NCBI RefSeq assembly: GCF_900108915.1
Contig: NZ_FNYH01000001.1
Span: 434,001 to 498,000 of the forward strand
Direction of reading: 5' to 3'
Length of the DNA: 64,000 bases
Origin: Allopseudospirillum japonicum
GTDB taxonomy: Bacteria; Pseudomonadota; Gammaproteobacteria; Pseudomonadales; Halomonadaceae
Under the pieces are notes generated by a model. It saw only the letters and a list, made by a program, of their open reading frames with translations, was not told the origin of the DNA and ran no database searches. Of this stretch, positions 37,614 to 45,802 are shown in pieces. How positions within the stretch are numbered: position 1 is the stretch's first letter; every line of letters begins with the position of its first letter. A program made the translations under genes and the position numbers.

Positions 37614-37664
37614 TTGAAGCCTTTGTAATGTGCCACTATACTGATGTCTAACTATGTAATACAT
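37614..37664 (+). promoter_or_regulatory. promoter and palindromic operator of the dinJ-yafQ pair
   Basis: TTGAAG (37614-37619), a 17-base spacer and TATACT (37637-37642) form a good sigma-70 promoter. ATGTAATACAT (37654-37664) is a perfect 11-base palindrome located at the expected transcript start, a likely autoregulatory site for antitoxin or toxin-antitoxin complex. The promoter makes the pair independent of any integron promoter. Confidence 0.7.
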
Positions 37665-37685
37665 CGTATAACAAAAGGTGCTATT

Positions 37686-37964
37686 ATGAAAACAGAAATG
37701 CTAAGTACTCGCATAGACCATGACACTAAAGTTGCTTTTACTAGCATCTGTGACGAAATGGGGCTTAGTACATCACAAGCTATTAAAATTTTTGCAAAAG
37801 CCGTGATTAATCATGGTGGTATACCATTTGACTTGCGCGTACCTCAACCAAATGAAACAACGATTTCAGCAATGAATGAACTTGTTCAAGGTCATGGGCA
37901 TAAAGCTGAATCGATTGAAACTATGCTGACTGAGCTAACTGAAGGCAAAGTTAAGAATGTATAG
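37686..37964 (+). CDS. DinJ/RelB family antitoxin
   Basis: 92 residues with a ribbon-helix-helix N-terminus: MLSTRIDHDTKVAFTSICDE, then MGLSTSQAIKIFAKAVI and GGIPFDL, typical of DinJ. AAGGTG lies six bases before ATG 37686; a frame from 37644 is open but overlaps the operator. It overlaps the toxin start by eight bases, giving translational coupling. The C-terminal part would wrap and neutralise the toxin. Confidence 0.9.
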   Translation: MKTEMLSTRIDHDTKVAFTSICDEMGLSTSQAIKIFAKAVINHGGIPFDLRVPQPNETTISAMNELVQGHGHKAESIETMLTELTEGKVKNV

Positions 37965-39778: not shown

Positions 39779-40525
39779 CTAAAAATGACACTGAGGTGCG
39801 TTTTCAGTAAGCGCTTGAATGCACAAAAAATAGGCTTGTCCGTAGGTTTTTTGCGTTCCGTATGTGGTCACTGAGGGAGTATCTTGTTGGCCTGCTTGGG
39901 TTGTTTGTCCTAAATGTGCCACCTTTTGCCATTGGCCCAAGCGCAAACGAAAGCGGCTGGCAACTTCTTGTGGACCTGAAATGGCTTGATCTTTTTCATA
40001 GGGTGCAGGCGTATTTTCCTGTCCATACGCTTGCACCTGACCAATAAAATCAACCTGAACATATTCGTCTAAAGGGGTAATATCAACCTGAAAACCGCGC
40101 GTCATACGGTAAAAATACCTGTGTTGTGCAAAAATAAAATCTTGCTGCACTTGTGCCGGTGTCCCTGGTGCCACCTCCACAGAAAAGACCTGATTTTGTT
40201 GCGTTGTATACATTTGCACATTACGCGTTAAGTCACGTAATCCATAGCTAAAATACAAACGGTAGCTTGCAGGCACTTGATCTAAACGGGCTAATAAATC
40301 CAATAAAGGCGCTACCGCTTGTGGATCACCACTTAAAATCAAGTTTTGTCCCTGCTGGCTCAATTGTACCTGCCCTAAATGCGGTGCTAATGCCTGCGCC
40401 AAGGCTGCCGCTGGCAAGGCTTGTGCACGATAAATTTCTAGTGAGGATGCTTGGCTTATTGCTGCTACGAATAAACAAATCAGCAAGCAAGCCCAAGCGG
40501 AAAGAAAATTCGTTCGCATCATCAT
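39779..40525 (-). CDS. exported protein with secretin-N-like domain
   Basis: 248 residues with a signal peptide (LSAWACLLICLFVAAISQAS). Residues about 28-90 (LEIYRAQALPAAALAQAL to PQAVAPLLDLLARLDQVP) have the fold signature of secretin short N-terminal domains. The remainder (YRLYFSYGLRDLTRNVQM, QVDITPLDEYVQVDFIG) looks like a beta-rich periplasmic domain. No secretin pore domain exists. It is last in a minus-strand group, 21 bases after the DUF3108-like gene. Confidence 0.6.
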   Translation of the reverse strand: MMMRTNFLSAWACLLICLFVAAISQASSLEIYRAQALPAAALAQALAPHLGQVQLSQQGQNLILSGDPQAVAPLLDLLARLDQVPASYRLYFSYGLRDLTRNVQMYTTQQNQVFSVEVAPGTPAQVQQDFIFAQHRYFYRMTRGFQVDITPLDEYVQVDFIGQVQAYGQENTPAPYEKDQAISGPQEVASRFRLRLGQWQKVAHLGQTTQAGQQDTPSVTTYGTQKTYGQAYFLCIQALTENAPQCHF

Positions 40526-40546
40526 GGCCTTCTATGTATTGATCAG

Positions 40547-41293
40547 CTAGTTTGTGGTGCGTACATGCCAACGCGCTAAACGAATCGACACGACTTCTTC
40601 TTGTTGATCGTAAGCTTGTGCTTTTAAAATCAGCCCCGGATAAGCGGCTGACATCCACATCAGCACTTTTTGTTCTGGTTTATCTGCAAACCAAAAACCA
40701 AATTCTAAGATAGGGATCAGCCGAGGGTCAGCGAGGATTTGCAAGCTTGCTAAATCATCCAAGTGATGATAATCAGCATACTTTTGATAGACCAAAGGCT
40801 TAAGACGCGCCTTCGAATCCAGTAAACTTAAATGCGCTTGATAACCCAAGGGTTTATCTGCCAGATGCTGCCCCAGCCATAATAAAGCGCTTTGTCGATC
40901 CATATAAGGCAGATCTTGGGCAGCCGGTTGCAAGTGCGTATCAACGTCTGTGATGGGTGTGATAAAGGCAGCGGCATCTAATGCGCGATCTTTTTTCGAT
41001 GTGAGTAAACGGCTACGCATCCGAAATTTTTGGCTGACAGGCTGCGTACCTTCCAAAATAAAACGCCCGTATTCTAACCAAGAAGCGACCTGCATATCCG
41101 CTTGCATGGTCGCTTGATAATAGGCTTGCCCCTGTCCCTGTTGATGATATTTCACATCATGCCGCACAGAGACTTTGGGGATTAAAGGGTGCTTAATATC
41201 CACTTGATAATGCGCTTCAAACTCTGGGTATTGTGCACTCGCACAGACAGAGCTCAACCCCAATAGCATACCTAACATCCAGTGTTTTAACAC
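40547..41293 (-). CDS. DUF3108-like exported protein
   Basis: 248 residues with a Sec signal (MLGMLLGLSSVCASA). The mature part begins YPEFEAHYQVDIKHPLIPKV, resembling DUF3108 proteins of the periplasm, which start with a beta-strand-rich region (F.ARY.V...). No catalytic motif is seen. It lies 18 bases after the upstream gene, so cotranscribed. Function unknown. Confidence 0.6.
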   Translation of the reverse strand: MLKHWMLGMLLGLSSVCASAQYPEFEAHYQVDIKHPLIPKVSVRHDVKYHQQGQGQAYYQATMQADMQVASWLEYGRFILEGTQPVSQKFRMRSRLLTSKKDRALDAAAFITPITDVDTHLQPAAQDLPYMDRQSALLWLGQHLADKPLGYQAHLSLLDSKARLKPLVYQKYADYHHLDDLASLQILADPRLIPILEFGFWFADKPEQKVLMWMSAAYPGLILKAQAYDQQEEVVSIRLARWHVRTTN

Positions 41294-41311
41294 AATCAGC
41301 CCCTTACGTAA

Positions 41312-42283
41312 TCAACGATAAAGATGCACTTCTAATTTTAGTGTAAAACGCCAATCCCCATCATAGACCACATCAGCCGCACTACGATCTTCTGCAACCC
41401 AAGCATATTCAGGTTGGAGTTCGTAAAACAACCAAGGACGCAAAAAGCTACGCCGGTACTTCACATGGACATAATATTCTTCTGCAACCCATTGGGGCTC
41501 ATCACTACCAAAAGCGCCTAACTCCAAGCCTACCCCTTCCTGTGGCCCATGTCGGGTGTAAGCACCTAGGCTACTTGCCCATTCAAAACGTTCATCTTCA
41601 TCGTAATAGGTCCCCGTCCCTGTTAAACGCAGCAAGTGTTGTGGATGCCATTGCCATTCCCAATCCAAGCGGGTTTGTGTGCCTAATTTTTCATCCAAGC
41701 GCCAAAAAAGACTTTGTGTCCAACGTGTTAACTGGGTATCAGTTAAAGGCAATTGATATCTGTGACGCGCAATTGCATAAGGATCTGGCGGGAAACGTGC
41801 TTCTAACCCACCTTCAAGGGTGGTTTCACTGCGTTCTGTTTGCGCCGCCAGCCAACGCAAAGCAAGACGTGTTCGCGTCACACTAGAGCTCTTACCGGAA
41901 GGATCATCTTCCGTAAACTCACCCCGAATATCTTCATCACGTGTGGTCAGCAAACGTACTCTTTCAGAAAGATGCGGTAGGCGTACACTGGCATATAAGC
42001 GCGTACGAAAGCGCCAGTCATCACGTTCAGACCAATCGATCTCATTACGCCAGCGGAAATAATTTTTATTGGTGTATTCATATTCGTCACTACGCTGGTT
42101 AGCAAAAAAACGATCAAAGCCCAAAATAGGATCATTGAGTTGTTGATACATATAAGCACGCGAACTATCCAACCAACTTGGGGCAGGTGTTGCTTCCGAT
42201 GTGGTCGCTTGGTTATTTGCACTCGCAAATACAGGCACCAAGCCCCCTAAGCAACATAAAGATAATGCAGTGACAAAACGCAC
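41312..42283 (-). CDS. exported beta-rich protein, probably outer-membrane associated
   Basis: About 323 residues. The signal peptide (VRFVTALSLCCLGGLVPVFA) is at the N-terminus when translation starts at GTG 42283, which has AGGGG about eight bases upstream. The body alternates aromatic and charged residues (YFRWRNEIDWSERDDWRFRTRLYASVRL as a series of short strands), like an outer membrane beta-barrel, but a closing aromatic C-terminus is only weakly present (KLEVHLYR). No family recognised. Confidence 0.6.
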   Translation of the reverse strand: MRFVTALSLCCLGGLVPVFASANNQATTSEATPAPSWLDSSRAYMYQQLNDPILGFDRFFANQRSDEYEYTNKNYFRWRNEIDWSERDDWRFRTRLYASVRLPHLSERVRLLTTRDEDIRGEFTEDDPSGKSSSVTRTRLALRWLAAQTERSETTLEGGLEARFPPDPYAIARHRYQLPLTDTQLTRWTQSLFWRLDEKLGTQTRLDWEWQWHPQHLLRLTGTGTYYDEDERFEWASSLGAYTRHGPQEGVGLELGAFGSDEPQWVAEEYYVHVKYRRSFLRPWLFYELQPEYAWVAEDRSAADVVYDGDWRFTLKLEVHLYR

Positions 42284-42346
42284 CTTAATCACCCCTCTTG
42301 GTTGATTGATCTTTCCACTTGAGTATGCCAAGCACCTTAAGGGAAT

Positions 42347-44068
42347 TTAATACATTAAGCTTAAAATTAATAACAAAAGTAACAGACCAGATAAGCCTTG
42401 CCAGAAAGCCAAAGGGTTACGCTGCATTAAAGGTGCTTGGGTTTCTTGTGTATAACGCGGGTTTGGCTTTTTCAAGTCGTAAATAAACTCAGATAAACGT
42501 GCGTATCTTAATTCAGGATTAGGCTGGAGTGCGCGCCGCAAAGCCGCATCCATCCACACAGGAATAATAGGATTTAACTGGAAGCTAGGGCGGTACTCAA
42601 GGCGTGCAAAGTCAAGTTGTGTATGCCCTGTGTGTACCTGATCTGCATAGGGCACTTGACCTGTCAATAACTCATACGCCACAGCAGCTAATGAAAATTG
42701 ATCACTGGTTTCATTGGGTTCACGGTTTAAATAATACTCAGGTGCTGTGTAAGGCGTAAAACCTACTTCGCGCGCTAAGGCCAATGCAGAAAGACCTTCT
42801 TGCGGATTTTTTAGGCAACAAGCTGCAAAATCGACCAGTTTCACTTGTCCTTGTGCATCAACCAGAATATTTTCTGGGGTCAGATGTTGATGCAAGATTT
42901 CTCGCCGATGTAACGCACGCAACCCTTTAGCAATTTTTTCTATCAGTACAATTTTTTGATGCAAATCAGCTAAGGGGAGACGCTGGTTATAATCACTTAA
43001 ACGCTCACCTTGCACATATTCAAGCAAATAATACAAATAGTTCCTTGGTTTGGAACTAGTAAGTACTCGGACAACATGCGGCGAGTTCACACGCTCCATC
43101 ACCCATTGTTGCATCATAAAATGCTGTAAAAAGCGGGCTTGCTGTGCTTTTTCTTCTGGGGGTGTTTTCAATACAGCCACTTGGGCAGTTTGCTGATCGC
43201 GCACTAAATACAAATGGCTGCGGGCACTTTGTTCAATAATCGCGTCAACCTGATAAGCATCTAAAGTATCCCCTACTTCCAGCCGAGGCGCTACCGGCAA
43301 AACACTGTAGGCATCACCTAAAGTTTCATCATGATGTAAGGGTAAGGTTTCTACTTGCACCAATTGAAAACAAAAATTAGAGCTAGAATAACCACGTGCC
43401 CCTGCTTTTTCGATAGCGAGTTTTAAAATCTGATCACAAGCTTGATGCAGATTATGCTTATATTCACGAATCAGGCGTACATAATCGCTTGGGGTTAAGG
43501 TGCCACGCGCAGCTTGCGTGGTCAGCAAAAAGATATCCCCTTGTTTTAACGCGAAAGATTGAAAGTCTATATCCAAGCTAGGGTCCATCCCTAAAGCACG
43601 CGAGGGATATCTGTATCCGCCTAAGTAGGTCGTGTGTTCACGGTTGATTTGTTCAAACTCTAAACCACGAAGACGAAACACCAAGGTATCGCCCAAATGG
43701 AATAAGTAGGCCGTGCGTGCGCGCAGAATGATGCTACTAAAGGAACTCACATAGCTACCATTAGCCACACTACGGCTTTGGCTAAACATCCAAGTATTTA
43801 ACGCACTGAGCACCCGTTTGACTGAGGTTTTCACATCCCAATTATCAGGGGTCGCAAAATAATCTGCCAAAAAGCCTTTCACACAAGTTTCACCGGCTTG
43901 TTTGGCAATCGCATTGCGCCATGTCGAATCGGCAATAACCGCAGCAACACCCTTAGTCGCCAGTTGTGACCCAGAAGGAATCGCTGTGGCCATCGACGAG
44001 CGCACACTACGACGATCGGGGGCAATATAGGCTTGCCCATAATTCACCTTAAGTTGGCCGACTTGCAT
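42347..44068 (-). CDS. PP2C-like/Ser-Thr kinase-like fusion, catalytically degenerate in both domains
   Basis: 573 residues. The N-terminal part (1-235) resembles the PP2C domain of bifunctional kinase/phosphatases, but metal-ligand motifs are changed: ADG is ADS, the LATDG site is LTTQA, and DDN is SSN. The C-terminal part (about 255-510) is a kinase fold with VLKTP (Lys), but HRD is HQH (HQHLTPENILV) and DFG is DFA. One membrane helix ends the protein (WQGLSGLLLLLLILSLMY). Both active sites look dead, so a regulatory or scaffolding role is likely. It is downstream of the chemoreceptor gene by 114 bases. Confidence 0.85.
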   Translation of the reverse strand: MQVGQLKVNYGQAYIAPDRRSVRSSMATAIPSGSQLATKGVAAVIADSTWRNAIAKQAGETCVKGFLADYFATPDNWDVKTSVKRVLSALNTWMFSQSRSVANGSYVSSFSSIILRARTAYLFHLGDTLVFRLRGLEFEQINREHTTYLGGYRYPSRALGMDPSLDIDFQSFALKQGDIFLLTTQAARGTLTPSDYVRLIREYKHNLHQACDQILKLAIEKAGARGYSSSNFCFQLVQVETLPLHHDETLGDAYSVLPVAPRLEVGDTLDAYQVDAIIEQSARSHLYLVRDQQTAQVAVLKTPPEEKAQQARFLQHFMMQQWVMERVNSPHVVRVLTSSKPRNYLYYLLEYVQGERLSDYNQRLPLADLHQKIVLIEKIAKGLRALHRREILHQHLTPENILVDAQGQVKLVDFAACCLKNPQEGLSALALAREVGFTPYTAPEYYLNREPNETSDQFSLAAVAYELLTGQVPYADQVHTGHTQLDFARLEYRPSFQLNPIIPVWMDAALRRALQPNPELRYARLSEFIYDLKKPNPRYTQETQAPLMQRNPLAFWQGLSGLLLLLLILSLMY

Positions 44069-44182: not shown

Positions 44183-45802
44183 CTAAAACCGGAAAGTATG
44201 CAAGCTCGATTGCAAGTTCAGGGCGACTTGGTGCAACTGATGGCTTGCCGAACTCACTGCTTGCGTTGATTGTAAAGTTTCTTCGGAAACTTGACGGATA
44301 GAAGTCAAGCTCTGGCTAATATCTTCAGCAACACTGCCTTGCTGATGCGCAGCGGAGGCAATATGTCCGCTCATTTGATTAATGCGCATCACCTGTTGTA
44401 CGACCTTTTGTAAATCTTCTCCAACCGCTTGGACATGTTGCACACTCTGTTGAGAGTTTTGATAACTCAGAGCCATTTTATCCGCAACCTGGTGCGCACT
44501 GGTTTGCAAAGCTTCTATCATGGTTTGAATTTCTAAAGTGGCCTCTTGCGTCCGTTGTGCCAGTGAACGCACCTCATCGGCAACCACGGCAAACCCCCGA
44601 CCATTTTCACCGGCCCGCGCTGCTTCAATCGCGGCATTTAAGGCTAATAAGTTGGTTTGCTCAGAAATGGTTTGAATCACTTCAATCACTTGACCAATGC
44701 GCTGGGTTTGTTGATGTAAATCCTGCATCGCCTGCCCAGAATCTTGGTTTTGGGTTGCCAGCTGTGCAATCGTGGTAATAGTCGTTCGCATGACTTCTTG
44801 GCCATGTTGCATATCGGTATTGGCCTCTTCCGTTGAAGTGGCAGTTGAAGCCGCACTTTGGGCAACTTCTTGAATCGTCGCGGACATTTCTTGCATGGCA
44901 CTAGCAAGCGTATCAACTTGTTCAAACTGGTGTTGCATCCCTGAACGGGTTTGCTCAACCGTACTACTGAGGCTTTCTGTTTGCTGATACAAATGATCGG
45001 ATGTCTGTTCGACTTTAGAAAGAATCTGCCGCAAGCTGGTCATCATTTGATCAGCGGCATCGGCTAAACGCCCTAACTCATCACGACGCCCTAAATGCAA
45101 GGTATGGGTTAAATCCCCTTGGGCAATTTCTTCCATTTGCAACACCATAGATTCTAAAGGCTGGCTAATATGGCGTGCGATCGCTTGTACAATCAGCATG
45201 ACCAGCACGACCACCACAGACAAAGCCAGCAGATTTTGTATTAAGTTGGCATAAAAAATATCGTTCACATCCTGCAAAAACACCCCGCTACCAAGCACCC
45301 AACCCCAAGGTTGGAAGCCTTGTACATAAGATACCTTGTCCTGGGGCTGATCAAATTGCGGGCCAATATAAGTATAATCAACAAAACCTGCACCTTTTTG
45401 CTGTACCACTTGCACCATTTCCTGCCAGTGGAACTTCCCTGAAGCATCTTTGACTTGAGTCATATCCTTGCCCTCACTTTGCGGCTTCATCGGGTGCATA
45501 ATCAAACGGTGCTTTTGGTCATTGATCCATAAGTAGCCTGATTTACCATAACGAATCGCGCGAATCGCTTCCATCGCAGCAAGGCGTGCACCCTCCTCTC
45601 CAAGTTGATCTCTTTGCTGATAATAATATTCTGCTAAGGTGTAAGCGCCTTCGACCATTTCCTGCACTTTCTCTTTGCGCGCATTTAAAAGCTCTTCATG
45701 CAGGTTACGCAAGGAAACCCCCTGAGTTAGCACAACGCCCAGAACGAATACCCATACGATAAGAGATAACTTCCAACGGATCGCAAGATGCTTGAAGCTC
45801 AT
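44183..45802 (-). CDS. methyl-accepting chemotaxis protein with single Cache domain
   Basis: 539 residues. A membrane helix at 12-30, a periplasmic single-Cache domain (about 35-185, with [16 protein letters not shown]), a second helix (about 190-210), HAMP and the cytoplasmic signalling domain. The hairpin tip [19 protein letters not shown] and [12 protein letters not shown] are conserved. There is no C-terminal CheR-binding pentapeptide (ends LHTFRF). Ligands of single-Cache chemoreceptors are often carboxylates, but this one is unknown. Confidence 0.93.

Follow-up and report, generated by a model that had tools for sequence, protein, structure and literature searches.

A PP2C-kinase fusion degenerate at both catalytic sites across the Halomonadaceae, probably a membrane-anchored binding protein

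Why would a bacterium keep an intact gene for a phosphatase fused to a kinase when both halves have lost catalytic residues? The question is raised by a gene of Allopseudospirillum japonicum at positions 42347-44068 (minus strand) of the window, i.e., the whole analyzed stretch of 64,000 nucleotides (contig NZ_FNYH01000001.1, positions 434,001 to 498,000). The gene encodes a fusion of a PP2C-like pseudophosphatase and a Hanks-type pseudokinase, 573 residues long and ending in a membrane helix. An earlier sequence-only reading had listed substitutions in both active sites and proposed that losing both activities while keeping the frame reflects a selected, non-catalytic role. The open reading frame is indeed intact and the listed substitutions are all present. 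In our best explanation, to which we give a probability of roughly 60%, a nitrate-linked PP2C-kinase fusion lost its partners and, in a single event in the family ancestor, both of its activities, and is now a non-catalytic, tail-anchored binding or scaffold protein.

The PP2C-like half covers residues 1-242 (43343-44068, minus strand), and its metal site appears degenerate when aligned with 117 active homologues. The Pfam search of the protein gave no PP2C match in this half, which has a weak match to the NCBIfam Stp1 PP2C model (2e-9). This stretch matches PF13672 in full-length homologues with intact catalytic residues, but not in the host protein. The pseudokinase half, delimited by Pfam and alignments, spans residues 269-535 (42464-43264, minus strand) and contains a PF00069 (Pkinase) match at residues 283-521 (1e-30). 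It is followed by a predicted hydrophobic helix, the tail anchor (residues 552-572; 42353-42415, minus strand), with no domain beyond it, and the alignment shows this hydrophobic stretch to be kept across the family. An AlphaFold2 model of the protein (mean pLDDT 63.6, a moderate confidence) matched the solved structures of PknB and of the PP2C phosphatase PstP. Within that moderate confidence of the model, the test of the PP2C fold against PstP (1txo) gave an E-value of 2e-10 and a TMt of 0.67.

The comparison included 192 homologues: 75 orthologues from the family, which we read as the Halomonadaceae of GTDB (Halomonas-type bacteria, Cobetia, Marinospirillum, and relatives; NCBI places Marinospirillum in Oceanospirillaceae), and 117 active proteins, of which 27 are from the class and 90 from the order, the latter including second copies carried by family members. 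The partition is sharp. The key residues of both catalytic sites are absent in 75 of the 192 sequences and all present in the other 117, and no sequence is mixed. The 75 doubly degenerate proteins span all 24 genera of the family, every genus being sampled, so that the substitutions are shared in an orthologous clade, a check that the sequence-only reading had suggested.

In the PP2C half, the host motifs read AVIADST (Asp47-Ser48), FLLTTQA (Gln185), and GYSSSNF (Ser230-Asn231), and the residues of the metal site are Ser24 (NxD), Asp47-Ser48 (ADG), Gly126-Asp127-Thr128 (GDS), Gln185-Ala186 (SDG), and Ser230-Asn231 (DN). Two losses concern all 75 family orthologues and had been missed as such: Asp24 of NxD is replaced by Ser or Ala (Ser24 in the host), and the Gly of ADG, whose change to ADS in the host had been noticed, is replaced by Ser, Thr, or Ala. 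Asp185 of SDG became Gln or Arg. The acidic losses previously described at LTTQA and SSN are real in the host, but the second is not uniform, since position 230 is still Asp in 33 of the 75 family members. Asp127 is retained in all of them and Asp47 in 74, and each protein keeps only two or three of the five metal-ligand Asps. With Asp47, Asp127, and sometimes Asp230 persisting, a single metal might be retained, as it is in PHLPP2 and TAB1 (PMC12002173). This is what favors the idea that one half remains catalytic, as phosphatase or kinase, through an unusual active site. We regard this as very unlikely, given the small number of ligands left and the fact that PHLPP2 with a single metal is inactive (PMC12002173). 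The clade also has fixed residues of its own that are absent from active members (among them R23, M26, N52, Q57, G151-Y152-R153-P155, R225-G226-Y227, C233-F234, R523, and R524), many of which adjoin the former PP2C motifs, a placement made by sequence motif alone.

The kinase half has motifs VLK (Lys301), ILHQH (His395), and VDFA (Asp413, Ala415) in the host. The Asp of the HQD motif, at position 395, is found in none of the 75 family orthologues, which have Gln, Arg, Gly, Asn, His, Leu, Ala, or Ser instead. The change had been described as HRD to HQH. The loss of Asp395 holds, but Q394 is ancestral and only the Asp changed, because the active relatives read HQD. HQD-type and DFG residues are kept in all 117 sequences outside the clade, as the earlier reading had stated for homologues. 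We found in addition that Glu320 of the alphaC helix, previously overlooked, is replaced by Gln throughout the clade. The host fusion has thus replaced D24, G48, D185, E320, and D395. The DFG motif, correctly reported as DFA in the host, has Ser, Ala, Gly, Asn, or Val in place of its Gly across the family orthologues (Gly itself being kept in some), while its Asp413 is kept in 75/75. The absence of a Gly-rich loop is no evidence of inactivity, since active relatives also lack it. The ATP-anchoring Lys and the membrane helix do remain, as had been stated; Lys301 is found in 73 of the 75 family orthologues and Asn400 in 70. With Lys301, Asn400, and Asp413 in place, it is plausible that most members bind ATP. 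ATP is probably not needed everywhere, because the ATP site has decayed further in at least three genera, which have lost Asn400 (Ala or Ser in L118, L119, L120, and L121, genera 17, 18, and 19), and Lys301 is Ala in one member, L121.

Pseudokinases such as SelO and SidJ are known to perform other chemistry (AMPylation, glutamylation). The kinase-like half could likewise use Lys301, Asn400, Asp413, and ATP for a different reaction. Nearly all members keep the Lys, the Asn, and the DFG Asp, and for the pseudokinase SidJ a different activity has been documented (PMC8548325). We nevertheless find this unlikely: the losses of Asn400 and Lys301 just described speak against it, the residue at the old catalytic position varies freely, and the alignment of the clade with active homologues reveals no newly fixed Asp or Glu able to replace the lost acidic residues. 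That the fusion protein is non-catalytic is, at the level of these sequence comparisons, well supported.

Catalytic residues that are gone could also indicate a decaying pseudogene or, at the HQH codon, a sequencing error. The latter is excluded by the 74 further orthologues that lack Asp at position 395. The gene was found in 200 of the 201 genomes of the family, in all 24 genera (the genome where it is missing is 88% complete), and the frame is intact in all 75 family orthologues. The whole-protein dN/dS, where computable among 26 pairs of close relatives, ranges from 0.009 to 0.13 and is low in both halves. These values are comparable with those of the active relatives (0.04-0.12). Such low pairwise values indicate that the gene is not decaying, and decay is refuted as an explanation. 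Together with substitutions common to 24 genera, this signal of strong purifying selection supports the proposal of a selected role that would be non-catalytic.

We built trees of 67 and 66 sequences, with and without the motif columns, and the degenerate proteins form a single clade (SH-aLRT 100) whose long stem measures 0.93 changes per site in the first of the two. Outside the family, identity reaches no more than 41% over about 560 residues, the order of the domains being unchanged. Some family members also carry active second copies, which belong to another, nirC-linked clade, and an origin of the degenerate gene as a recent duplicate of these copies was rejected on this ground. About 2 kb ahead of one active fusion copy there is a related stretch that consists of PP2C only (G004:C1:413484-414194, locus L128).

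The existence of these second copies, and the frequency of this mode of action among pseudoenzymes, would fit a regulatory decoy, i.e., a dominant-negative or allosteric partner of an active kinase, phosphatase, or paralogue. However, the gene is single-copy in the host and in most of the family genomes sampled. Moreover, the search of the host genome with the Pkinase and PP2C_2 profiles gave no other Hanks kinase or PP2C_2 match, so a helper of a paralogous kinase is unlikely there. We consider a decoy improbable.

The gene neighborhoods, where names were assigned by us from the sequences of the genes, suggest where the fusion comes from. Active relatives are of two types. Those of the first immediately follow a nitrate-type MFS transporter gene and have nirB-nirD on their opposite side, often with mpl-ubiX downstream; those of the second follow nirC/focA. 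One or the other transporter directly precedes the active fusion in most of the outgroup loci examined (L070, L085-L089, L093, L094, and others). This suggests that active PP2C-kinase fusions regulate nitrate or nitrite uptake, a role for which we found no paper. Family loci usually read ppa (divergent), the fusion gene, pfp (convergent), mpl, and ubiX, with no nitrate gene, and none of the 26 family loci has a nitrate MFS or nirC transporter adjoining the gene. A locus of another family, L091, has flanks that match those of the family on both sides, orientations included, but there nirB-nirD and one more gene separate the kinase from ppa. Since the flanks are the same with or without nirBD and the transporter, the family gene is best read as the positional orthologue of an active, nitrate-linked kinase-phosphatase. 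Its retention is independent of nitrate assimilation, because nirB, present elsewhere in 153 of the 201 family genomes, is absent in 48, including the host.

Of the 26 family loci, 24 have ppa immediately upstream and one has it at a distance of 5 kb; it is missing from the window, the host ppa being on another contig. A function through ppa or pfp was rejected, as the adjacency looks like a leftover housekeeping order that is broken in the host. We found no conservation of same-strand neighbors at the family loci; the gene stands mostly alone between ppa and pfp, and the locus therefore suggests no interacting protein.

Hence, a signaling enzyme formerly linked to nitrate uptake has probably turned into a membrane-anchored binding protein. 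The ancestral fusion would have been encoded beside nitrate transport and assimilation genes; in the family ancestor these neighbors would have left the locus and both active sites would have been lost, once. The protein would then have been retained as a non-catalytic, tail-anchored cytosolic binding protein. In most members the kinase half may hold ATP as a structural or switch ligand, and the former PP2C cleft, with many clade-fixed residues next to its motifs in sequence, may hold a protein or phosphate ligand. The output would be scaffolding or allosteric control of a partner other than a paralogous kinase. The lack of an enzyme partner and of a conserved operon, the single tail anchor, and the two preserved folds make binding or scaffolding at the inner membrane the most likely role. 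More tentatively, the two opposed activities may have disappeared within a single period of the family's history, leaving a double pseudoenzyme that would serve the family as a core, nearly universal sensor or hub anchored in the membrane, and that would read a ligand through its former PP2C cleft and ATP through its former kinase cleft.

The tethering of PP2C and kinase domains in bacteria was reported in 2005 (PMC1262709). The Pseudomonas-type fusions reported there share with the host protein the order PP2C, kinase, C-terminal membrane helix, are mostly 33-41% identical to it over the full length, and are often annotated as bifunctional protein-serine/threonine kinase/phosphatase. In contrast with the host fusion, those examined here retain every catalytic residue of the two halves and lie mostly behind nitrate or nitrite transporters. 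A 2025 review describes the bacterial pseudokinase families ActPs1-3, GLW, CP1, DYD, and DLHK, as well as EssB/YukC and MviN (PMC12599244). Like the fusion, these have a kinase fold with a lost catalytic motif, and several have a C-terminal membrane helix; the text of the review mentions neither PP2C nor Halomonas. The fusion is not a GLW pseudokinase, as these have GLW in place of HRD and no beta3 Lys, whereas it has HQH and Lys301. TAB1 and PHLPP2 are PP2C pseudophosphatases, with the fold kept and metal ligands lost, and the active site of PHLPP was lost once in an ancestor (PMC12002173). They differ from the fusion in being animal proteins that are not joined to a dead kinase. The kinatases of kinetoplastids also combine kinase and phosphatase domains in one chain, with kinases predicted to be dead, but they are eukaryotic, have LRR repeats, and their DSP-class phosphatase is predicted to be active (PMC2175518). 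While pseudokinases and PP2C pseudophosphatases are known singly, here the dead pair would be fused and fixed family-wide, and we found no report of such a pair in the open-licence papers searched, including those on PA1782, on Halomonas pseudokinases, and on nitrate-linked kinases. With an active, nitrate-linked ancestor traceable by synteny, the family offers a clean natural experiment on the conversion of enzymes into binding proteins. Since many hosts are culturable, knock-outs and pull-downs are practical.

Other genes of the window deserve mention. Right behind the pseudoenzyme, at 39779-42331 on the minus strand, there are three genes for proteins of 339, 248, and 248 residues with secretion-signal-like starts, which have no Pfam or NCBIfam match and do not occur at the locus in relatives. 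A small ORF on the plus strand (37644-37964) resembles, by eye, antitoxins of the RelB/DinJ type. Finally, a chemoreceptor with a Cache sensor (44183-45802, minus strand) lies upstream of the fusion on the same strand, and a related chemoreceptor is found near the fusion gene in Marinospirillum and Terasakiispira.
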